Source: Theocolax elegans (Eukaryota > Arthropoda > Insecta > Hymenoptera > Cerocephalidae). From it: a stretch of DNA of 64,000 nucleotides. Every line of letters starts with the position of its first letter. The first letter of the stretch is position 1. The translations under genes and the position numbers were made by a program. The stretch lies in NCBI GenBank assembly GCA_026168455.1, contig CM047428.1, forward strand, positions 2,856,887-2,920,886. Direction: 5' to 3'. Positions 43,462-63,380 of this stretch are shown here, piece after piece. The notes under the pieces are model-generated. The model was not told where the DNA came from. It worked only from the letters and a program-made list of their open reading frames with translations, and did not search any database.

Positions 43462-43519
43462 CTAAATACGCTAAAAGTTTAGTATTTAATTTAATTGCTA
43501 GGAAAAATGTGTCAATAAG

Positions 43520-45946
43520 TTGATTGCAATGAAGTGTAAAATATGTAATGAAAAATCATTTTTCAATGTTAATGTTTTATTACGCCATTTAAAAGTTTTT
43601 CATTCCATGTTAAATAAGTATGTTTGCGTATATGATAATTGTCAACTGCAATTTAGTTCTATTTTTAAACTTAAGAAGCATACTCTTAATTGCAACGAAA
43701 AAGATGTGGATGTTAAAGAATATGTTACAAAAAATCTATCTCGTGTGGTTCCTGAAATAAAAACATCTAATTTAAACGCAATTACAATTAACCAAAATGT
43801 AAAAAGTATTTCGACCGTAGATAATACTTCATTTTCTACTGATGAGAATTCAATTGAATGTTTTATTATGGAATTTATTGCAAAACTTTATGCGAATAAT
43901 AGTATAACAAATTCAGTTATCAACGAAATTGTAATACATTTTGAAAAATTTACAGAATCATTAACTTATTCTTTGGAACAAAATTTAAAATCTAAAATTC
44001 CTGTCGAGTTTCATGCACATATTACTAACTCTTTGCGAATGGATTTTTTTTGCAAATTCTAGTTCCGAGTTCAAACGATTCCATTACTTTAAAAAAGAAA
44101 GATGCCTAATTGATCCAATTTCATTTAAAATTGGAGAAATGAGCGATAGTAAAAAAGTTGCGAATGGAATAATCCGTACTCAAAAAAAATGTTATGGTTA
44201 CATTGTGTCATTGCGTGTTGTTTTAAAACTTATTTTAGAACTGCCAAATGTCTTTATGGAGATAATTAAATTTATAAAATCTGAGATACAAACAGGTGAT
44301 ATTAAAATAGTTTCAAGCATCTTTAATAGTGAATTATGGCAAGAAATTGCGAAAGAATTCGGCAGTAAAATAGTTTTACCTATGTATCTTTATTACGACG
44401 ACTTTGAGATTAATAATCCGCTATCTACATCTGCGGGTGTTTACAAGATCGGTGGAATGTATTTTTCTATTGCCGCATTGCCTCCACGATTTTCGTCGTT
44501 ATTAGACAGTGTCTTTTTGCTTCAACTTATACATACAGAAGATCAGAAGCATTTTGGAAATACAAAATGTTTTAAAAACGTAATCGATGAATTAAGATTT
44601 TTATATTCAGAAGGAATAACTATTAACGTTAACAATAAAAACTACAAGATTTATTTTGTTGTAATTGGTATTTTAGGAGATAATTTAGGGGTGAACAGTC
44701 TTTTCGGCTACAATGAGAGTTTTATTAGTGAATATTACTGTAGATTCTGTCGTGCTTCTAAAACTGATGCTCAAAAACTCGGCGTAGAAATACATTCTCT
44801 TGTTAGAAATGTTAAAAATTATGATGAAGACTTGAATTCTCTTGATCATGGGGTAAAGTGTGAATCTATATTTAATGAATTGCCTCAATTTCATATTGCT
44901 GTAAACTGGACATGTGATTTAATGCATGATTTGTACTTGGGCGTATGTCGATATGACATGTCAGAAATTATTAATTATTTCATTAAAAAAAATATTTTAC
45001 TTTACGTCACTTAAATGATAGATTAAAATATTTTGATCATACCGAAATAGACAGAGGTAATAAAGTAGCTCCTATTAAAGAAAATCATCTTAAAAGTGGT
45101 TATTTAATTACAACAGCATCGCAAATGTCTGCCTTGATTACTTATTTTGGAATAATCATAGGGGATTTAATCCCTCACGATGATCTCGTATGGGAATTTT
45201 ATTCCATTCTTTACGATATTGTTGATCAAATTACTAGTTCATGTATTTCTGAGCAAGATCTAGTATATCTTTCAAGCCTTATAAAATCGCATAATGAACT
45301 TTTTATAGAATTATTTAAAAAACCTTTGAAGCCAAAGTACCACATACTAATTCACTACATCAGAAGCATTAGAACTATGGGTCCGCCTAAATACTATTCT
45401 TGTGAAAAGTACGAGTCATATCACAAAACTTTTAAAAATTATGCAAAACTTGTAAACTCTCGTATAAACATTCTCAGAACACTTGTTGTAAAGAATCAAC
45501 TAGCACTGGCATTTAGGTTTATGATGGGTCGAGGCTTAGAAAATACGACTGAATTTGGCCCAGTACTAAAGAATTTTATACCAGAAAAATATGGATTGAA
45601 AGCTAGCAATAACTCTGAAATGTATGAAGTATCTTATGCGAAAATTAACGGAACTGTCTATAAATTGTTAAACTCGATCTGTTTGGGTAATAATTCCGAA
45701 AATGATCCAATTATTGGAGTAATTTACAGTATCGTAAAAACAAATACAAATGAAATTTATTGCATATACAAGGAATGTAATACAATTGGATACGATAATA
45801 ATATGAAGGGATATTTAGTATCGTTACCGCGTCACTTGGATGTGCATAAATTTATTAAATTAAACATCTATGAATACGTAAGACCATTTAAGATCCACAT
45901 TAATGGAAAGGGTCAGTATGTATGTGCTAAACGAGATTTGTACTAA
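43520..45946 (+). pseudogene. Zinc-finger / Tnp2-like CACTA transposase with two frameshifts
   Basis: Three overlapping frames make one coding region of about 805 residues: 43520-44062, 44013-45014 and the frame ending at 45946. N-terminal zinc fingers: a C2H2 (CKIC, then RHLKVFH) and a second C..C..H..C type. The middle has LGDNLGVNSLFGYNESF followed by YYCRFC, then WTCDLMHDLYLGV. The C-terminal part has KYHILIHYIR and YESYHKTFKNYAKL. These blocks, in this order, are typical of animal CACTA/EnSpm (Tnp2-related) transposases; several conserved Asp and Glu are present, but I cannot assign the catalytic triad with certainty. Breaks: a T-run at 44043-44050 (one T too many) and an A-run at 44986-44993 (one A too few). 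Both are homopolymers, so mutation and consensus error are equally possible. AATAAA follows at about 45947. Confidence 0.8.
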
Positions 45947-48056: not shown

Positions 48057-48260
48057 TTTTCAAAAATATAAAATTTTATTATTTCTCCAATGTATTGGCA
48101 ATGTATTGCCAATATTTCCAAAAATATTTAAATTTATAATTTTTCCAATGTATGGGTAGCAGATTTCCCATATTTCCAAAAATATTTAATTTTATAATTT
48201 ATTCAATATATGGACTGTATATTTCCGATTTTTCAAAAAGTATAAAACTTTTAATAATCG
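48057..48260. repeat. 58-bp minisatellite, about 3.5 units
   Basis: Units start with TTTCCAAAAATATTTAA-type sequence at about 48057, 48114, 48173 and 48231 and contain a TTCCAATGTAT-like block. It probably continues into the gap. Confidence 0.8.
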
Positions 48261-50870: not shown

Positions 50871-51389
50871 AAAGACCCCCCGATTAATTTTAGAATTTGA
50901 AAATTTAGCAGCACTTAATAAAAAAAATATAACCACAAAATATGACAACTGCAACTGCTGCAAGTAAACTGAGCGTAACAGTAGCGCCTTCGCGCTGAAT
51001 TTTTCAGAGTCTGACACGAGTTTTTACATGTGTACGCGCTCTGTCCCGGGCTGGAAACTAATTCTATAGACATATATATATAAAAAGGGAAGAGACAATA
51101 AAACACGGAAATAGCAAAAATCGAGTTAAAGGAAATCAACAAGCAATTTCTTTCACTTGATTTTTCTCTAGTATGTGTCGATGAATTTACACAAAATTTA
51201 ATGTTGAGTGAAGATAATTAAATAGGGAATGTGGGGTTTGATCGATTATACATATATTATTAATGTAATAATCAAAATAATGAATACAAAATCTGAGGGG
51301 TTAAATTAGCTGTCTATAATGACTCTCGCGCTATACTTGCGTCAGGCGCTATCGCGCCTTTTGATAAAATAAAAAAAGACAAGTCAAAG
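50591..51389. other. Non-coding DNA with (TA)n at 50829-50868
   Basis: An uninterrupted TA run and AT-rich surroundings. No supported gene. Confidence 0.5.
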
Positions 51390-51754
51390 ATGGTAATAGA
51401 TAAATTAAATAGTTCAGAAGAAATGGAAAATGCAGATTTGAATTCAGAAAATGAAAAAAGTACAGCTATTTATAAGAATTCTCCATTTTATAAGAAGTAT
51501 TATAACATTTTAAAAATAGTAGAGTTCAAGGTAAAAGATGAACAAGAATTAATAAATGAAGTGGTACAAGAAGAAGAAAAAGAAGAAATAGTAAAAGGAT
51601 TTAATAAAAGCAAAAGGAATACCCACAAAAGCGACTTTGTTATTAAAATTACAAATAAATATTATTGTCCAGAATTTATGCATCATTTATTAATTCAATG
51701 GATGCCATATGTTGTTTTTGGAAGTGCATTAGATTTGGATTCAATTGATCCATA

Positions 51755-51767
51755 TATTTCTAGAGTT
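51755..51767 (+). repeat. Left 13-bp target duplication of the hammerhead element
   Basis: TATTTCTAGAGTT, repeated at 53130-53142. Removing the insert and one copy restores an open frame across the junction. Confidence 0.9.
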
Positions 51768-51896
51768 TATGTGTAATGTATATAATATCGGTCTCTCCGA
51801 ACTAAATGCTTTATTTTAGAATAAAGCAGGCCTATCGTACTCTTTGTCTACTATGGTTGGTGAAATTCCCAGAGCACGGCCTTTTAAAATAATTAA

Positions 51897-51965
51897 AGGC
51901 GTTTCGTCCTCGATCTCCAGCTTGGACTCCTCAGTAAGGAACTGGCGATCTTACCTTAGACGCCT
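51897..51965 (-). ncRNA. Hammerhead ribozyme, type III, copy 1
   Basis: Minus-strand order: AGGCGT (helix III), C (cleavage base of a GUC triplet), TAAGG..CCTTA (helix I, 7 bp if a bulged U and two A-U pairs are added), CTGAGGA (core, CUGANGA), GTCC..GGAC (helix II), GAAA (core), CGCCT (helix III). Every conserved core base is present. Helix III is the open end, hence type III. Predicted cleavage lies between plus-strand positions 51959 and 51958. Loop I (GATCGCCAG) and loop II (CTGGAGATC) can form 8 of 9 pairs. Confidence 0.9.
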
Positions 51966-52291
51966 GTCGCAAGATGAACCGCGACGCCAGCAAGATATTC
52001 TGCGGCTATATATATAGAAAAGAGACGACAATCTCTCCAACGAGTGTAGAGAGATAGTCGTCTCCATCTGGTGGTGGGAAAAACCACCAGCCAGAGTGCG
52101 ACGTATGAGACCGAGTCGCAAGTTATTTGAGATAAAATGAATTTATCGTTCGGTGATATGTATATGTGTAATGTATATAATATCGGTCTCTCCGAACTAA
52201 ATGCTTTATTTTAGAATAAAGCAGGCCTATCGTACTCTTTGTCCATTATGGCTGGTGAAATTCCCAGAGCACGGCCTTTTAAAATAATTAA

Positions 52292-52360
52292 AGGCGTTTC
52301 GTCCTCGATCTCCAGCTTGGACTCCTCAGTAAGGAACTGGCGATCTTACCTTAGACGCCT
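52292..52360 (-). ncRNA. Hammerhead ribozyme, type III, copy 2
   Basis: Identical in core, helices and both loops to copy 1. Predicted cleavage between 52354 and 52353, 395 nt from that of copy 1, so self-cleavage would release a 395-nt monomer. Confidence 0.9.
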
Positions 52361-52687
52361 GTCGCAAGATGAACCGCGACGCCAGCAAGATATTCTGCGG
52401 CTATATATATAGAAAAGAGACGACAATCTCTCCAACGAGTGTAGAGAGATAGTCGTCTCCATCTGGTGGTGGGAAAAACCACCAGCCAGAGTGCGACGTA
52501 TGAGACCGAGTCGCAAGTTATTTGAGATAAAATGAATTTATCGTTCGGTGATATGTATATGTGTAATGTATATAATATCGGTCTCTCCGAACTAAATGCT
52601 TTATTTTAGAATAAAGCAGGCCTATCGTACTCTTTGTCCATTATGGCTGGTGGAATTTCCCAGAGCACGGCCTTTTAAAATAATTAA

Positions 52688-52756
52688 AGGCATTTCGTCC
52701 TCGATCTCCAGCTTGGACTCCTCAGTAAGGAACTGGCGATCTTACCTTAGACGCCT
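52688..52756 (-). ncRNA. Hammerhead ribozyme, type III, copy 3
   Basis: Same as copies 1 and 2 except for one substitution in helix III (ATGCCT instead of ACGCCT on the minus strand). This turns a G-C pair into G-U and keeps the helix. Predicted cleavage between 52750 and 52749, 396 nt from copy 2. Confidence 0.88.
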
Positions 52757-53083
52757 GTCGCAAGATGAACCGCGACGCCAGCAAGATATTCTGCGGCTAT
52801 ATATATAGAAAAGAGACGACAATCTCTCCAACGAGTGTAGAGAGATAGTCGTCTCCATCTGGTGGTGGGAAAAACCACCAGCCAGAGTGCGACGTATTAG
52901 ACCGAGTCGCAAGTTATTTGAAATAAAATGAATTTATCGTTCGGTGATATGTATATGTGTAATGTACATAATATCGGTCTCTCCGAACTAAATGCTTTAT
53001 TTTAGAATAAAGCAGGCCTATCGTACTCTTTGTCCACTATGGCTGGTGGAATTTCCCAGAGCACGGCCTTTTAAAATAATTAA

Positions 53084-53129
53084 AGGCGTTTCGTCCTCGA
53101 TCTCCAGCTTGGACTCCTCAGTAAGGAAG
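53084..53129 (-). ncRNA. Hammerhead ribozyme, truncated copy 4
   Basis: Contains the 3' strand of helix I (TTCCTTA), CTGAGGA, helix II, GAAA and the 3' strand of helix III. It lacks the GUC and the 5' strands of helices I and III because the element ends here. It cannot cleave in cis. Confidence 0.85.
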
Positions 53130-53142
53130 TATTTCTAGAGTT
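53130..53142 (+). repeat. Right 13-bp target duplication of the hammerhead element
   Basis: TATTTCTAGAGTT, identical to 51755-51767. Confidence 0.9.
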
Positions 53143-54465
53143 AGTAATGCTTTTGAAGAGAGTCAACGTAAAGTAAATAAAAAAATACTTTTCAAGAAAC
53201 AAGTAACGTATCGATAGCAGACCGAGTTCGTCAACTGCAAACCGCACAAGAACATACAATAGCAGGTATTGAATTAAAAGCCGTAAAAAGAATTTGAAAA
53301 AGGAAGAGAAACCAAAATATCCTGAGACAGCTTCAAACCCATTTGTTGAAGAGGAGTGGAGAAAGAAAACTGTAAAGCGAAAGCTAGGACACGTAGATAC
53401 TCCAAAAATACAACAGTTGTATCAACAGTTTAGCGAAAATAAAATAAATAGTAAACATAAAAAGAATCACGAAAAATTAGAAGAAGTAGTAACAGTTGAG
53501 TCTTCTATTGCAACATATCAAAATGCCGATAATTTTAAAGAGATGGACGAAATCGAAATAAAAGAGGTATCAAGTGCAATAGATAATAAAGACATGGCAG
53601 AGGAAAAATGCATAAAAAATGAATTAATTAACGCAACCGTAAAGATAAGGGAAAGTAAAAGTGTTAGTACTAAGTTTAATGGTGTTGTCAATAATGTTGA
53701 ATATTATATGTAAAGCAAGTCTCCTTATATCGCTGTTGCTTGGTATAGCACAAAACAATGTGTAACAGTCAATACCTTTGAAGTAAGGGCTAAAGAATTT
53801 GCATCATTGAATCCAAACAGATGGGTTGATGGAGTAATAATAGACGCATTTTGCGCATTACAAGTGACTGAATGGAAAGACGTTACATATGTACCAACAG
53901 ATGACAGTAAAATAATATTAAGGACATTGGAGATTATTAGTTGTAAATATTGATGAAAAAACATTACTTTTGCTAGATCCATATGAATGTAACATAGATA
54001 AAGATCGTGTTGTCCAAGCATGGCTGAAATTTACGCAGTTCTGTGCAGCAGATTCCGCATTTAATAAATTAAAAGAGGTTGAATGGGAAATTAAGGATAT
54101 GGTAGAAAAACCATATCAACCAGAAAACGATGGACACAGTTGCAGAGTGTACATAATGTATTACTTAGAATGCCTTGGTAAACAAGAACATTTTAATTTC
54201 AATTTCGAAGGGGCCGTATACAGATCACAAATTGCACACGATTTATTGTCAAGATCTGAAAATATGGAAGGCAGATGCTTACATTGTTTTGCAGAAGCTG
54301 ATACGTTTACCGTAAACTGTAGTAATTGTAAAAGAAAAAGTCATAATAGTTGTATTTATAAGTCGGAAATAAATACAGATTCTGATGATTCTGAATACAC
54401 AGAAAAAATTAAGAAACGTAACTAAAGAATTTTTATGTAGATTATGCAAGAAATGGCAACAGTAA

Positions 54466-54838
54466 ATCAACTAAACTTGTAGGCCATCAACCAAAGTATG
54501 CAAGAAATACCAACAGTATGCCTGCTGAAATTAAATGGTATAAAAAGAATTAAAAAGCTCCAGGAAAACTGTAAATATAATGAATAAAAGCTTTTAACAG
54601 TTAATTAAAAAGTTGAAAGGATGTAAAAATTAACAATTCTTTCACTTTATTAATCGACTGTTAAAACCCACTTTCATCACGATATAAATTAGTATGATAA
54701 ACAAGATAAACCCTTGAGCAATAGTTTTTAGAATACAATCAGAAAAAGTATATACAAAAAAAGCGTGCCCTAGAGAAAAAGCTAAATAGTTCGAACACAG
54801 ACAGTATTAAAGGGCAACCAAGAAAGATCATTAATGCA
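54466..54838. other. Non-coding DNA after the protease pseudogene
   Basis: Repeated TATGCAAGAAAT and CCAACAGTA-like words; no gene. Confidence 0.4.
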
Positions 54839-55760
54839 GTGTACAAATGTATACATAAAACAAGATAATAAAGAAGGATACAAATTTATAAAGTGTGATG
54901 TATGTAGTGTACAAATGTATATACTAAACAATATAAGAAAGAAAAATACAAATTTAAAAATTGTGACGTATGTAGTGTACAAATGTATACACTAAACAAA
55001 CTAACAAGGAGAGCGTCAGGCCTGCGGGAAACGGATCTTTACCAAACTGTAGGACATGATTTCTACTATAAAAATATGCAGAAAGCTGAAGTTCCGTATG
55101 CCAATGCCATGTTTTACGGACTTTATAAGCAAAAAACAAAAAATTTCGCAAGAAATAGTCTTGACTTTGGTCACTTATAACTCATAAACAAAAAGAGATA
55201 TGCATTCAAACTTAAGTCCAGAAGAAAGCTGAGATCAAATAGATTGGATTTAAAAAAAAAGAAGTTCAAATAGTTTAATTTGGTTGAAAGTTATGGAAGA
55301 AAGAAGAATAAGAAGATAATTTAGCTTGAAAATCAACAGATTTTTTAATTCAAAATATTCGTCAAAAAATCGTTAAATTTCTATTTCTTTCATAACTTTC
55401 AACCAAATTAAACTATTTGAACTTCTTTTTTTTTAAATCCAATCTATTTGATCTCAGCTTTCTTCTGGACTTAAGTTTGAATGCATATCTCTTTTTGTTT
55501 CTGAGTTATAAGCGACCAAAGTCAAGACTATTTCTTGCGAAATTTTTCGTTTTTTGCTTATAAAGTCCGTAAAACATGGCATTGGCATACGGAACTTCAG
55601 CTTTCTGCATATTTTTATAGTAGAAATCATGTCCTAGAGTTTGGTAAAGATCCGTTTCCCGCAGGCCTGACGCTCTCCTTGTAAGAAAAAAGGATACACA
55701 GTAGCAAAATGTAACGTACGTATAGTGTAAAAATGTATACACAAATAACAAAAACAAATA
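54839..55760. repeat. About 68-bp minisatellite split by a palindromic element
   Basis: Units starting GTGTACAAATGTATA occur at 54839, 54907, 54975 and (GTGTAAAAATGTATA) 55725. The third unit is interrupted after AAACAAACTAA and resumes with TAAGAAAAAAGG, matching the uninterrupted AACAATATAAGAAAGAAA of the second unit. Confidence 0.8.
55005..55681. mobile_element. 677-bp palindromic element with TAA target duplication
   Basis: The arm from 55005 (CAAGGAGAGCGTCAGGCCTG onwards) to about 55300 is almost perfectly complementary to about 55390-55681, with roughly 90 bp between. TAA stands on both sides (55002-55004 and 55682-55684), and a neighbouring minisatellite unit shows the unoccupied site. 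A 3-bp TWA duplication is typical of PIF/Harbinger transposition. The two frames found on opposite strands are the same arm read twice. Confidence 0.82.
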
Positions 55761-58956: not shown

Positions 58957-60282
58957 TTATGTCCGCGACCTTAATTTCATTCGTGGGGAGTTTCCAATAC
59001 TTATGTTTGTTTGGGGTTTCATTTTCCTTGGTCTACCTCTATTGCGTTTTGGAATTTCGGGGATCGGATTTACTGGGGATCGTGATCCTTTTCTGTTGGG
59101 TATGGGTTTCTCAGGGGTACGGTTTTTAAATTGATTAGGGTAACGGGGAGGAACATATCGTTTTAAGTCATTTACAAACACTTTTGTCTGCCGTTTTGTA
59201 TCCTCTTCCTCGACCAAGTAAACTACTGGAGATAAAACTTTTACTATTTTTGCGGAGCCTATGAACTTTGGTGCGTGCTTTGCAGCAAAGTTATTATCCG
59301 CAGAGGACAAAACATGGTTCCGTTTGCAGACTAAATCTCCCACTTGGAAGGTTATTTCTCTCCTTCCTTTATTATAATATTTGGCATGTTTATCGTTTGC
59401 TTTGTCGATGTGCCTTTTTACTAAGTCATAGATTATGGGTAATCTTTTTACTCTATTTGACCATGTTTCAGTATCTGGTTGGGGAATTAGAGATGGGGAC
59501 TCTATGTGTTTTCTTAGTAAAGCTACCGGGGTGGGATTTCTACCGAAATTTAGGAAAGCTGGGGAATATTTGGTGGATGAGTGGACTACGCTATTAAGAG
59601 CAAAACAAAATTCTCCTAGGTGCTTATCCCATTCCCTGTGGTCCTGATCTAGATAGCTATTTATCATGGGCTTTATATTCCTGTTCACGCATTCTACTGG
59701 GTTAGCCTGGGCATGATACGGGGGAATTGTTGACTGAATTACTCCGTATTCCGTTAACCTTTCCGTGATCAATTTGTTTGAAAATTCCATTCCATTGTCA
59801 GTAATAAGGTATTTTGGGCATCCCCATCGGTTGATTACTAGCTCATCAAAAGCTGTTAATACATTTTTCGCGTCCGCTTTCCGTAAAGGTTTCATTTCTA
59901 TGTATCTGGTGAATAAATCCTCGAATACTATTATATATTTGTATCCTAACTTGGATGGTGGTTTTGGACCCATTATGTCCGCTGCTACCACAGTCCATGG
60001 CCCTTCAATGTTTCTTCCCTCCATGATACCTGCTAGGGGTTGCTGGGATGATTTGTGGGCTTGACACTTCTGACAGGCTTTTACAAATTTGCAGGTGTCG
60101 TAATAGATACCGGGCCAATAATAGTATGTTGCTACCCTTGCGTATGTCTTGTCCATTCCCAGATGACCAAATTGTGGGGAGTAATGTGCTTCAAATAGGG
60201 CTTTGGGTCGGTCTTTATTGGGGAGTATGAGCTTCCACACGTCCAAATCGGGGATTAGGGCGGTGTGCATATAAATAGCCAT
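58957..60282 (-). CDS. Gypsy integrase region, open
   Basis: 441 codons. Zinc-binding HHCC domain near residues 30-75 (HYSPQFGHLG, then CKFVKACQKC). Catalytic core with the three acidic residues in AADIMGP, LITDNGMEF and ANPVECVNR. After the core there is a GPY/F-like module (KFIGSAKIVKVLSPVVYLVE) and a basic tail with an AT-hook-like RGRPRK. It inserts the element's cDNA into chromosomal DNA. The frame opens within the pol polyprotein, so the first Met is probably not a true start; the junction with RNase H has a stop and a frame change at 60283-60302. Confidence 0.88.
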   Translation of the reverse strand: MAIYMHTALIPDLDVWKLILPNKDRPKALFEAHYSPQFGHLGMDKTYARVATYYYWPGIYYDTCKFVKACQKCQAHKSSQQPLAGIMEGRNIEGPWTVVAADIMGPKPPSKLGYKYIIVFEDLFTRYIEMKPLRKADAKNVLTAFDELVINRWGCPKYLITDNGMEFSNKLITERLTEYGVIQSTIPPYHAQANPVECVNRNIKPMINSYLDQDHREWDKHLGEFCFALNSVVHSSTKYSPAFLNFGRNPTPVALLRKHIESPSLIPQPDTETWSNRVKRLPIIYDLVKRHIDKANDKHAKYYNKGRREITFQVGDLVCKRNHVLSSADNNFAAKHAPKFIGSAKIVKVLSPVVYLVEEEDTKRQTKVFVNDLKRYVPPRYPNQFKNRTPEKPIPNRKGSRSPVNPIPEIPKRNRGRPRKMKPQTNISIGNSPRMKLRSRT

Positions 60283-60301
60283 TTTCTATTTTTAAATCTG
60301 G

Positions 60302-60721
60302 TTATTTTTTCGGGGATCTTATAACCGCGGCCATTCGCTTTTGATATTCCGGATCATCCAAGTCCAATGGTCCTACTGCTATTACTGCTTCTTGATTCTC
60401 ATAAGCTCTTGATAAGACGTCCGGTACTTTGTGCAATGCGCCTTTTCTATGAACAAATTTAATATTATAGTTTTGTAGTACCGTGTTCCATCGAGCTAGT
60501 CTGCCAGTAGGATCCTTAATGTTCTTCAGCCATAACAGACTATGGTGATCGGTTATGACGGTGAATTCCTCACCCTGAAGATAACCTCGTAAACGGTCCA
60601 CTGCCCAAAGGACTGCCAAGCACTCTTTTTCAGTTACTGTATAGTTCCTTTCTGCTTTCGTCAGTGACCGACTAACGTAATAAATGGGGTGCTCCTCTCC
60701 GTTAATTTTCTGAGTCAGCAC
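60302..60721 (-). CDS. Gypsy RNase H region
   Basis: 139 codons, including YYVSRSLTKAERNYTVTEKE, ECLAVLWAVDRLRGYL and TDHHSLLWL. These are the classic Ty3/Gypsy RNase H signatures; it degrades the RNA strand during cDNA synthesis. The preceding frame (60734 onward) is the same reading frame, separated only by an in-frame TAG at 60731-60733 within the first RNase H motif after TDAND. Confidence 0.87.
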   Translation of the reverse strand: MLTQKINGEEHPIYYVSRSLTKAERNYTVTEKECLAVLWAVDRLRGYLQGEEFTVITDHHSLLWLKNIKDPTGRLARWNTVLQNYNIKFVHRKGALHKVPDVLSRAYENQEAVIAVGPLDLDDPEYQKRMAAVIRSPKK

Positions 60722-60733
60722 TCCCGCTATAGC

Positions 60734-61550
60734 CTAATCGTTCGCGTCCGTTTGCAGGGTAAAGGGCAGGGATAGATCCGGTCGGGCTAATACGGGGGCC
60801 TGGGTTAGGGCAAGTTTTAGCTTTTCAAAAGCTTCCTGTTGTTCGGCTTTCCAGTGCCATCTCACGTCCTTGCGAGTTAAGTAATTTAGCGGTACTTTGT
60901 ACTCAGCTAATCTATCAATAAATCTGGAATACCAGCCAATCATCCCTGTAAACCGACGTAATTGCTTCAAGTTAGTTGCGGCTGGATATTCCAGTAATGG
61001 TTTAATTTTGTCACTATTAGTTTTTAAACCATCCTCGTTTACTATGTAACCCAAATATGTTACTTCAGAGAAGCAGAACTCCGATTTCTCCCGATTTATC
61101 TGTAAGTTTGCTTTTCGTAGCGCTGTAAGGACTATTCTAATCCACTGTATGTGTTCCTCGAATGTCTTGGCCGTGATGATTATGTCATCTAAATAGGCAA
61201 AGACATGAGGTTCCCATTCTGGCTTAATTAATTTATCCATTATTTGCTGGAACGTGGCGGGGGCATTTGTCAATCCATAGGGGACTTTTAAACTAAAATA
61301 GACCGCGACCGGGAACCGCAAACGCCGTTATCTCTCGACTTTCGGGGGCAAGGAGGACTTGATGGTAGACTTGCGAAAGATCGAGTTTGGTTATGTATCT
61401 ACTTTTCCTAAGCTGATCCAGTATGTCATCCATAGTCCGTAATGGATAAGCATACTTTTTAGTTACTGCATTGACTTGTCGATAGTCAATGCAGAACCTG
61501 TATTTCCCGTTTGCCTTGGGTACTATAACCGGACAGCTACACCAAGGACT
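60734..61550 (-). pseudogene. Gypsy reverse transcriptase region, frame broken
   Basis: The part 60734-61321 is open and holds YGLTNAPATFQQIMD and the active-site motif FAYLDDIIIT, followed by thumb/connection sequence to the RNase H start. The N-terminal fingers lie at 61330-61550 in another frame, with YRFCIDYRQVN and TKLDLSQVYHQV. A small indel near 61320 separates the two. Copies RNA into DNA when intact; this copy could not make a full polymerase without frameshifting. Confidence 0.87.
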
Positions 61551-61833
61551 ATCCGATTCCGCTGCCGAATAGGTTTGTTATCTATTAACTCCAATTTGTG
61601 TTCCGTTATATTGGTTACTCCTAATGTTTTCGGGGTGGGGGGAACTAATTCATCCAACAGTTTGTTGAATTGTTGGACTTGTTCTGGGGTTGCTCTAACT
61701 AGTCCATCGATACTAGCTATCGCGGGGAAGCAGCGCCATAAGGGTAGAATTGGTGAATTATCCCTTTAATTGTCCAGCAAGTATCATTCCTAAAATCTAC
61801 CTTAATATTAGTCTTCCTTTTAAAATCCATTCC

Positions 61834-62090
61834 CTAAATACAATCATAATGTAACCCATCAGAAACCTCAAAGGGCATTGTGATTTCTTCCTCGTCCAGT
61901 TTAACTTTAATCTCTACTATCCCTTGTATTGGAACCTGTGTCCCATCTGCAACCTTAACACTTGTGCACCTTGATGGTCGTAATTTGCTTCCCAATATTC
62001 CACTCATTCCCTTTCCAATGAATAAGTGAACTGAACCACTATCCAATAAAGCTACCAATAGTCTACCGTTTAATTCTAAGTTAAAAAATA
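61834..62090 (-). pseudogene. Gypsy aspartic protease region
   Basis: Contains the active-site motif ALLDSGSVHLFI (D-S-G) near its start and a GIVEIKVKLDEEE stretch. The frame stops at 61834, before the reverse transcriptase, and the 61560-61830 linker has stops. It would cleave the Gag-Pol polyprotein if complete. Confidence 0.7.
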
Positions 62091-62214
62091 GTCTGGGAGC
62101 AACTCCGGGGGTTTTTTTGTATCAGGGATTGGGGTTTATGGGATTTTTCTGTATGGGGCCCTTTCGGGGCAAATGTTGAGGGCAAATGTCTATTTCCTCT
62201 GATTGAAGTTTCCC

Positions 62215-63380
62215 TGATTATCGTAGCATTTTTCGCAGTATTTACTGCTTACTCCTGTTTGGCCACAACCAAAACATTTTCTTGGTTCTGGGCAATCTGC
62301 TACCCAATGTCCCATTTTTCCACATCTGAAACAGGGTTCTTTTACTTTATCTCTGGGACTTGTGTTTTTTGCCCTTCGTTAGTATTCCTGGTTTGGGTTG
62401 AAGTTTCCTCTATATGGTGGGGATTGTGGTTTTTTCAGATAACCTTGTTCTCCTTCCGAGGTTCTAGGTGTCCAATTTTGGTTTTTGTAACCGCGACCGT
62501 AATTTCTCTGGGGAATAGTTTCTTTTTCCATCTTTCTATTGTCCGCATCCGATCTATAATTAGGAGTTGAGCTTGGGTAGGTTTTTCTTTTGGTTTTGGG
62601 GCTGGGAGGGGGTGTGGATAATTTCTGGGCATAGGTGGGTTTTTCCTGGGGTTTTTGTGGGATAGATAGTATTGTTGCCAATTTCTTAGATTTCTGTTCC
62701 TGTTCTACATATGAGTACTTTGACAGACCGTAGTTTTGTAATGTTGGCGGGGGTTTATATGCTTCATCCTTTTTCCCTAATTTTTGTAGTTCAGTGAATG
62801 AACAGAAATCGCGTCTCTCAATACGTTGTCTATAAATTGGATGCATATTCCTATATGCTCTGTCCAATTGTTCCTGTATAGATATTGTGGGTTTTACTTG
62901 ATCCAAGAGTCCACGCAACTTAGTTAGGAAAGTGGATATATCTTCCTTTGGTCCTTGTGTGCGCAATTCAATTGTCTGTCTAATGTGGGATTGTGTGTCT
63001 TCCACACCATACTGCAGACGAAGGGCTTCCGCAAAGTCCTCAAAATATTCCAATATTTTTTTTCTCTGCGAAACCACTTCCATGCTCGTCGTCTAAAATT
63101 GATGGCATTGCCTTCATTATTTCGTCTAGGCTAAAACCATGTGCCTCCATGCAATACTCCAGATTCCTTAGAAAGATGTCCGGTTCGTTCTTTTTGGATC
63201 CTTTAAATTGAATGTGCCATCTAGAAAGAATATCTACTGTGTGTTTTTCCCTCATAAACGTTACATTCTCAAAACTTGCTTGGGAGTAGCTGCCAAAGGG
63301 GATTTGTGATGGTGTGTGATGTTGCGGGTTTATATAGGGATTGCGGGGATGAGGGTAATTAGGAATTTCGTAGGTTTAAT
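62215..63380 (-). pseudogene. Gypsy gag region (capsid and zinc knuckle), broken
   Basis: The segment 63380-63085 holds the capsid start (RWHIQFKGSKKNEPDIFLRN). A frame change near 63080 leads into 62379-63083 (FAEALRLQYG, ELRTQGPKEDISTFLTKLRG), followed by a Pro- and basic-rich linker. An in-frame TAA at 62379 is followed in the same frame by the zinc knuckle CFRCGKMGHWVADC (C-x2-C-x4-H-x4-C) and a second, degenerate CFGCGQTG..YC. Gag packages the element RNA. Both breaks would prevent a full Gag. Confidence 0.82.

Follow-up and report, generated by a model that had tools for sequence, protein, structure and literature searches.

A tandem array of 395-bp units bearing type III hammerhead ribozymes on its minus strand lies at 51768-53129 of a 64,000-nucleotide stretch of the Theocolax elegans genome (contig CM047428.1, positions 2,856,887 to 2,920,886; hereafter the window). 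The array is best explained as one insertion of a non-autonomous, non-coding retrozyme, whose RNA circle is probably reverse-transcribed by enzymes of Penelope-like elements (PLEs) from both sides of a staggered cut, a reading to which we give a probability of roughly 0.8. All results were obtained from DNA sequence. They include dispersed copies between target-site duplications (TSDs), insertion edges that fall at two sites inside the unit, uniformity of the units within an insertion, and PLE insertions of like geometry in the same genome.

The array and its hammerheads

The tandem 395-bp array described in the first-pass annotation was recovered by Tandem Repeats Finder (51768-53128, period 395, 3.4 copies, 98% matches; 3.45 copies over 51768-53129). 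The unit has a GC content of 43%, and the array shows no arrangement of long terminal repeats (LTRs). No frame of 100 or more amino acids lies wholly inside 51768-53129; two such frames overlap the edges of the array.

Both strands of the window were scanned over their full length for the hammerhead motif, with at least 4 bp required in helix II; the four CUGANGA...GAAA cores found all lie on the minus strand of the array, starting at 51934, 52329, 52725, and 53121. They belong to the three complete and one truncated type III hammerheads that the same annotation had read there. The complete copies have the form AGGCGUC/UAAGG-loop1-CCUUA-CUGAGGA-GUCC-loop2-GGAC-GAAA-CGCCU (slash, predicted cleavage), with UGCCU in place of CGCCU in one of them; in the third copy one pair of helix III is a G-U wobble (GAAAUGCC). 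Each contains CUGANGA, GAAA, an NUH triplet, and three helices. Helices I and II are closed by loops and helix III is open, which is the topology of type III and not the type I of metazoan retrozymes. The truncated copy lacks the 5' strand of helix III, the cleavage site, the 5' strand of helix I, and most of loop 1, within which the boundary of the insertion falls. Neither the motif scan of the window nor Rfam gave a second ribozyme on the plus strand.

The covariance search that had been proposed for these motifs succeeded in part. Rfam Hammerhead_3 (RF00008) matched two complete copies, each at 36.5 bits (E 8.7e-6 in a search of 1.7 kb), while the third complete copy and the truncated copy gave no report at E<=10. 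Both loops are longer than those of the model, and all scores are under its gathering score of 48.5 bits, so a whole-window Rfam scan at the gathering threshold missed the hammerheads. Other Rfam rows (ar7, FTX_1, Tombus_5, and mir-551) fell far under gathering and were judged to be chance.

Dispersed copies and their edges

The T. elegans assembly comprises 658 Mb in 1277 contigs. One unit used as a query gave at least 177 matches, a lower bound obtained by scoring 40 of 1973 candidates, with 90-100% identity to the window unit among the matches listed. From these, 39 loci were grouped by eye; they hold 41 insertions (three of them in locus L160), spread over seven large contigs and two small ones. 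Apparent segmental copies (L160b, L160c, and L163) were kept among the 41 for counts of edges and TSDs. Numbering the unit so that phase 1 is the first base after predicted cleavage, a second query covering phases 109-226 gave 46 matches and 20 extra loci. The element thus occupies at least 59 loci in its own genome.

Insertions range from 1.0 to 9.0 units in length. Most (28 of 41) consist of two head-to-head inverted arms, and 13, including that of the window, have a single orientation. Because the left arm is antisense and the right arm sense, the RNA-3' sides face outwards. There are 69 outer edges of this RNA-3' type, of which 37 fall at site A (phases 183-201) and 30 at site B (phases 220-238), with the others at phases 60 and 73. 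The two intervals, set after the edges had been seen, span 19 nt each, or together 9.6% of the 395-nt unit, and the sites are about 38 nt apart. In the middle unit of the window array, site A corresponds to about 52163. The 5'-type edges, 13 in all, are spread over phases 18-389.

The two sites are allotted one to each end of an insertion. Among the 28 head-to-head insertions, 15 have A on the left and B on the right, 11 have the reverse, and two combine A with an edge elsewhere; none of the 28 has A at both ends or B at both ends. L160b and L160c appear to have arisen from one insertion by segmental copying. When they are counted once, the combination is A with B in 25 of 25, for which the chance under independence is 2e-8. 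Arms starting at A and arms starting at B were not found to differ in length (p=0.33). One of three hold-out loci had A and B edges at phases 185 and 230 and a TSD-like match.

TSD-like matches of 10 bp or more flank 29 of the 41 insertions, compared with 15 of 1640 mismatched pairs of flanks. Their commonest length is 13 bp, and their AT content is 0.87 against 0.68 in the flanks. At 24 of the 28 head-to-head junctions the arms differ by at least 51 nt of phase, which rules out a fold-back (snap-back) origin of the inverted arms for most insertions. Mobilisation by a transposase is likewise unsupported, as the edges follow RNA polarity. Inverted copies between TSDs and two putative internal start sites 30-40 nt apart, the marks of insertion of the PLE type, are both present. 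The 13-bp TSD, the complementarity of the hammerhead loops, the at least 59 loci, and the PLE-like geometry all go beyond what the first-pass annotation had noticed.

A second type III family

A search of the same genome with RF00008 gave 16 matches (L190-L205), none of them over the gathering score. A motif parser found type III hammerheads in 15 of these loci, some of which overlap, and none in L205. They belong to a 514-bp unit without significant similarity to the 395-bp unit, with the hammerhead GUGUC/UGGGGC AGGGACCGUCUGC GCCCCA CUGAUGA GUU CUGGCAGACGGUCCCAA GAC GAAA CACA.

Six inverted insertions of this family have both edges (L191, L195, L196, L197, L201, and L203; L194/L195 and L197/L198 are one insertion each). 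One edge falls at 329-335; the other falls at 287-296 in five of the six and at 280 in the sixth. The two sites are about 37 nt apart, and all six insertions have TSD-like matches of 11-15 bp. Since this family also shows the two-site pattern, the pattern holds for unrelated sequence. The six do not include loci that show a single edge, a single orientation, or a cut array, nor do they include L192, a tandem duplicate of L191 that has a chimeric left side, ends at 291 and 293, and no TSD. Within this 2-kb duplicate, at 1220-1282, about 45 nt resembling the 395-bp family (84% identity), near site A, are joined to sequence of the 514-bp family, possibly through a template switch between two retrozyme RNAs.

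The template

Variation among the units bears on the RNA from which an insertion was copied. Units in the same arm differ on average by 1.27%, units in opposite arms of one insertion by 1.40%, and units of different insertions by 3.55% (cross pairs among L160a, L160b, and L160c and between L162 and L163 were left out). Eleven diagnostic columns were defined, each with at least two states that are fixed in four or more insertions, L160b, L160c, and L163 being left out. Of the resulting cells (insertion by column), 337 of 351 are homogeneous, as are 230 of the 239 in which both arms are covered; if units were drawn from the pool independently of one another, about 209 mixed cells would be expected. 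The diagnostic sites thus support the view that all units of one insertion would derive from one RNA sequence.

Outermost segments with an A or B edge run beyond the cleavage site in 60 of 67 cases, which rules out a linear cleaved monomer as the template for most, and the longest uninterrupted segment measures 1949 bp. The simplest template would be a single monomer closed into a circle. Possible alternatives are a multimer of uniform units and homogeneity acquired through later gene conversion.

Penelope-like elements in the same genome

An open reading frame (ORF) joining a reverse transcriptase and a GIY-YIG domain is found not in the 395-bp element but in PLEs elsewhere in the genome. A GIY-YIG search gave at least 150 matches over the cut-off, with 150 of 1713 candidates scored and with the reservation that a GIY-YIG gene need not belong to a PLE; 21 of the matches listed lie in open frames of at least 500 aa. 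The elements at L216 (with L218) and L217 have 837-aa ORFs, counted from a chosen methionine, with RVT_1 and GIY-YIG domains. Named relatives of the PLE protein come from Leptopilina, Trichogramma, ants, and the beetle Cylas, among the best 120 of 627 matches, few of which are named.

All three PLE insertions that were looked at (L216/L218, L217, and L214/L215) are head-to-head inverted and near-identical, with long open frames. In L217, each arm holds partial tandem copies at 99.9% identity. The edges of L216 and L217 are about 25-28 nt apart, with TSD-like matches of 13 and 15 bp, and the two share the right edge GGGUGCUAAUUCUCAUA/ (slash, edge). In the third type, L214/L215, about 45 nt separate the edges and the TSD-like match measures 11 bp. 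L216 and L217 also contain a CUGAUGA...GAAA hammerhead-like motif, which is read as a minimal type I hammerhead and gave no Rfam report at E<=5.

Published work on PLEs describes comparable behaviour. A purified lizard PLE protein cuts and extends both strands of AT-rich DNA in vitro, and PLE reverse transcription starts internally at two adjacent sites that bound a genomic 'tail' of 30-40 bp; in vitro, the strands were not seen to differ in start site (PMC11167929). Bdelloid PLEs, in the portions of PMC3846280 available, have head-to-head pseudo-LTRs (pLTRs), a 31-bp tail that is optional at one inverted pLTR, and TSDs of 8-10 bp. Among the partly available PLE literature, no account of a start pattern with one site per end was found.

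The favoured mechanism and its alternatives

The proposed cycle would run as follows. A tandem array would be transcribed, and its hammerheads would cut the transcript into 395-nt monomers that a host ligase would circularise, as the intact ribozyme and studied relatives suggest. A GIY-YIG PLE protein would bind the circle and cut AT-rich DNA with a stagger of about 13 bp; PLE copies with open ORFs and the TSDs are there to be seen in the genome, and the enzyme itself is putative. Both DNA ends would then prime reverse transcription inside the RNA, one at A (about 191) and the other at B (about 230), the edges being observed and the priming being what they suggest. Each transcriptase would travel round the circle, often for more than one lap, as is suggested by arms that extend past the cleavage site and by arms longer than one lap. 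Joining of the two complementary DNAs, mostly at unrelated phases, would give the head-to-head inverted array between TSDs that is seen in the genome, and priming at only one end would give an array of single orientation, as in the window.

Several observations weigh against this reading. The support comes from DNA, and cleavage, circularity, the ligase, and the responsible PLE are inferred. No PLE sharing the start-site sequence was found among 12 GIY-YIG loci compared with both units, and the query of phases 109-226 (40 scored candidates) returned only retrozyme-like places and no PLE. Twelve of the 41 insertions have no TSD-like match of 10 bp or more, and at four of the 28 junctions the arms are 7-16 nt of phase apart, each of which may be a fold-back. 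The second hold-out locus has edges at 172, outside A, and at 227, and no TSD; the third has its right edge at 228 and its left side beyond the sequence retrieved for it. Seven of the 67 outermost segments stop short of the cleavage site. The diagnostic columns were chosen for fixation within insertions, which favours homogeneity, and some of the homogeneity could come from gene conversion. Constraint on the hammerhead core is not significant (1 of 32 template-level variants against 32 of 313 post-insertion variants, p=0.34; L160b, L160c, and L163 left out). Finally, PLE insertion in vitro is unaffected by hammerhead mutations and uses unprocessed RNA as its main substrate (PMC11167929), so a circle is not proven to be necessary.

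These last two points lend themselves to the strongest alternative, in which a long multimeric transcript from a single genomic array is copied instead of a circle, and the ribozyme is dispensable for insertion. We regard it as unlikely, but as worth more than the other alternatives. Within one array, units show a mean difference of 1.3%, so transcripts of an old array would carry mixed units, against the homogeneity of the diagnostic cells. The core bases and type III helices, moreover, are common to two otherwise unrelated families.

A different enzyme could in principle produce similar structures. With a linear multimeric transcript as template, twin priming by a retrotransposon of the long interspersed nuclear element (LINE) type would likewise leave inverted arms flanked by TSDs, and TSDs of 13-15 bp fall in the LINE range. 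Such an origin is improbable here, however: the edges lie at two sites inside the unit and not at a poly(A) end, A is combined with B in 26 of 28 insertions, and the like geometry of the three PLE insertions points to PLEs, for which two adjacent internal starts are a described feature (PMC11167929).

Slightly less probable again is that the arrays derive from the integration of an infectious agent that replicates as RNA, either viroid-like or resembling hepatitis delta virus (HDV-like), and that host PLE enzymes occasionally capture. A point in its favour is that the whole monomer is strongly self-paired (-134.2 kcal/mol, z -7.8). However, motif scan and Rfam find no hammerhead on the other strand, while in the toad and termite agents both strands bear one; the genome holds many insertions at the high identities given above, and two unrelated families both have the two-site pattern. 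The viral database IMG/VR, which may omit records near the present genome, has no match to either core pattern. The core pattern of the 395-bp family also had no match in prokaryote contigs. A separate observation concerns three IMG/VR viral contigs (L023, L051, and L054), in which a hammerhead-like pattern having GUCC...GGAC as helix II is matched 5, 5, and 3 times, respectively.

Ordinary satellite DNA, in which unequal crossing-over or replication slippage builds the array and the hammerhead is an inherited relic, would account for tandem arrays of 1 to 9 units and has precedents in the hammerhead satellites of newts, schistosomes, and cave crickets (PMC6155905 and PMC2837043, as far as these are available), but it can be set aside, given dispersal over at least seven large contigs, TSDs at 29 of 41 insertions, two preferred edge phases, head-to-head arms, and unit variation partitioned by insertion.

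Loop pairing and a possible fold switch

Both families have hammerhead loops that are complementary to each other. In the commonest hammerhead of the 395-bp family, to which 61 of 112 copies are identical, 11 positions of loop 1, GAUCUCCAGUU, pair with loop 2, AGCUGGAGAUC; a single mismatch occurs in the window copies, and the loops of the 514-bp family pair at 12 positions. Energies of the loop duplex are -18.1 kcal/mol for the commonest hammerhead, -13.7 for the window copies, and -26.5 for the 514-bp family, and these were reached by 0, 5, and 0 of 5000 shuffles of loop 2, respectively. Shuffling of loop 2 was used as the control because a phage set gave just 3 distinct type III loop pairs (120 stretches). 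About 40% of hammerheads are predicted to form pseudoknots between these two loops, and such pseudoknots accelerate cleavage where this has been tested (PMC3088659, in part); HDV-like type III hammerheads are marked by similar pairing, according to the available portions of PMC7936874.

For the isolated commonest motif, the lowest-energy fold is a nested rod made of helix III and a helix between loops 1 and 2 (-28.3 kcal/mol), and the hammerhead secondary structure without tertiary pairing is at -12.9 kcal/mol. As the rod is the lower of the two, loop pairing may possibly act as a fold switch in these models. A more ambitious proposal joins two claims: that one circle would be copied simultaneously by two target-primed reverse transcriptases, A and B being assigned one to each DNA end and both arms being written in this way, and that the loop complementarity (11-12 nt in both families) would be a switch by which the multimer cuts and the finished circle stays closed. 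It is put forward tentatively, the odds being somewhat against both parts holding together.

Relation to known systems

Type I hammerheads entered into the definition of metazoan retrozymes (Cervera and de la Pena 2020, PMC7229834, available in part). From what that source describes, the non-LTR retrozymes of animals have low-GC (<50%) tandem units of about 150-450 bp with one hammerhead each and no LTR, TSDs longer than 4 bp around dispersed copies, and highly self-paired RNA, and the 395-bp element resembles them in each of these respects. It differs in that its hammerheads are of type III, that two families occur, and that an insertion geometry can be read from 41 insertions. With the LTR retrozymes of plants, as portrayed in the same portions of PMC7229834, it shares type III hammerheads, non-autonomy, and a proposed circular RNA intermediate, but it has no LTRs, a TSD of 13 bp instead of 4 bp, a length of 395 bp instead of about 700, and a GC content of 43% instead of more than 55%.

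Type III hammerheads with loop 1-loop 2 pairing also link the element with HDV-like agents of toad and termite and with genomic hammerheads of termites and dipterans, to judge from the accessible portions of PMC7936874. The HDV-like consensus there is GCCR/YGGC, and in the window copies loop 1 contains GCCA and loop 2 contains CUGG. In the hammerheads of the HDV-like agents, termites, and dipterans, unlike those here, helix I contains an internal loop and an additional hairpin. The agents of toad and termite possess an ORF for the delta antigen and bear a hammerhead on each strand, and the termite genomic hammerheads are isolated motifs (PMC7936874, same portions).

PLEs offer the closest parallel in insertion. 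Tandem and inverted insertions, TSDs, and AT-rich targets are common to both (PMC11167929; PMC3846280, in its available portions), as are two internal starts of reverse transcription bounding a tail of 30-40 nt (PMC11167929). The retrozyme differs in having no reverse transcriptase ORF, and PLE hammerheads in the literature are of the minimal type I. PLEs have already been proposed as the movers of retrozymes on the grounds of shared hammerheads, tandem copies, and co-occurrence, as the available text of PMC7229834 has it.

The first-pass annotation had concluded that a multimeric type III element in an insect-like genome looks unusual and may be undescribed. A multimeric type III element in an insect genome, distinct from the usual type I of animals, is indeed what is found; the further verdict, 'unusual and may be undescribed', is too strong, because type III hammerheads in insects had been reported before. 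They are already published for termites and dipterans, and 'elements with type III HHRs' (hammerhead ribozymes) are mentioned for insects in the portions of the literature available. The accessible text of a 2021 paper states that the atypical type III architecture was not found by a structure-based search, either in hymenopterans and hemipterans or in a cockroach. Within the literature covered, which is partial, we found neither published TSD-flanked type III retrozymes in insects or Hymenoptera nor a PLE-type edge signature published for retrozymes.

The insertion site and its surroundings

The array interrupts an ORF (Table 1). When the array and one TSD copy are removed, the frame of 51297-51767 continues via 53143 for 24 codons and then reaches a stop. 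The host site is probably another transposon, because an ORF for an Ulp1 protease (Pfam C48) and an ORF with relatives in Cotesia, a beetle, and an ant lie nearby. The latter, at 43989-45011, has named relatives in five of 17 rows (three Cotesia, one ant, and the beetle Agrilus), the proteins themselves being unnamed. Together with the PLE protein, this bears out the description of the genome as insect-like: the named relatives of the two transposon proteins are Hymenoptera and one beetle in each list. Taken by themselves, these relatives would indicate a hymenopteran host, probably a parasitoid wasp, with the reservation that transposons can pass from one species to another.

Table 1. Positions of the retrozyme insertion and its parts in the window
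Feature	Position	Strand	Details
Transposon ORF into which the array is inserted, left part	51297..51767	+	
Left TSD	51755..51767	.	13 bp, TATTTCTAGAGTT
Retrozyme insertion	51768..53129	- (RNA sense)	3.45 tandem copies of a 395-396 bp unit, one orientation
RNA-3'-side edge of the insertion, putative start A of reverse transcription	51768..51770	-	phase about 191
Type III hammerhead, complete	51897..51965	-	predicted cleavage 3' of 51959 (51959/51958); Rfam 36.5 bits, 51896-51966
Putative start B of reverse transcription, middle unit	52119..52129	-	phase about 230, CAAATA/AC; not an edge of this insertion
Type III hammerhead, complete	52292..52360	-	predicted cleavage 3' of 52354; Rfam 36.5 bits, 52291-52361
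Loop 2, middle hammerhead	52305..52318	-	AAGCUGGAGAUCGA
Loop 1, middle hammerhead	52335..52348	-	UAAGAUCGCCAGUU, complementary to loop 2
Type III hammerhead, complete	52688..52756	-	one helix III G-U; predicted cleavage 3' of 52750; motif scan
Truncated hammerhead at the 5' edge of the insertion	53084..53129	-	motif scan
Right TSD	53130..53142	.	13 bp, TATTTCTAGAGTT

Other repeats lie in the same window. A decayed transposon-like region with the Ulp1-type protease ORF occupies 43502-45946 and 53922-54425. On the minus strand, 58957-63375 holds Ty3/gypsy-like ORFs (RVT_1, RNase H, and integrase by Pfam) split over several frames, with upstream frames that have no Pfam match. Tandem repeats occur at 48057-48243 (58 bp, 3.2 copies) and at 54834-54999 (68 bp, 2.4 copies).

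Significance

The enzyme that moves animal retrozymes, and the template that it copies, have so far been open questions, with PLEs as candidates by virtue of shared hammerheads and co-occurrence. The insertions described here keep a record of the process, with two preferred starts, one for each DNA end, copying that often exceeds one lap, and one template for each insertion. Three PLE insertions of this genome and a second, unrelated retrozyme family have like geometry, and these records together make the idea directly testable. The results also indicate that retrozymes of an insect employ type III hammerheads, in which case the type of ribozyme would not separate the retrozymes of plants from those of animals.

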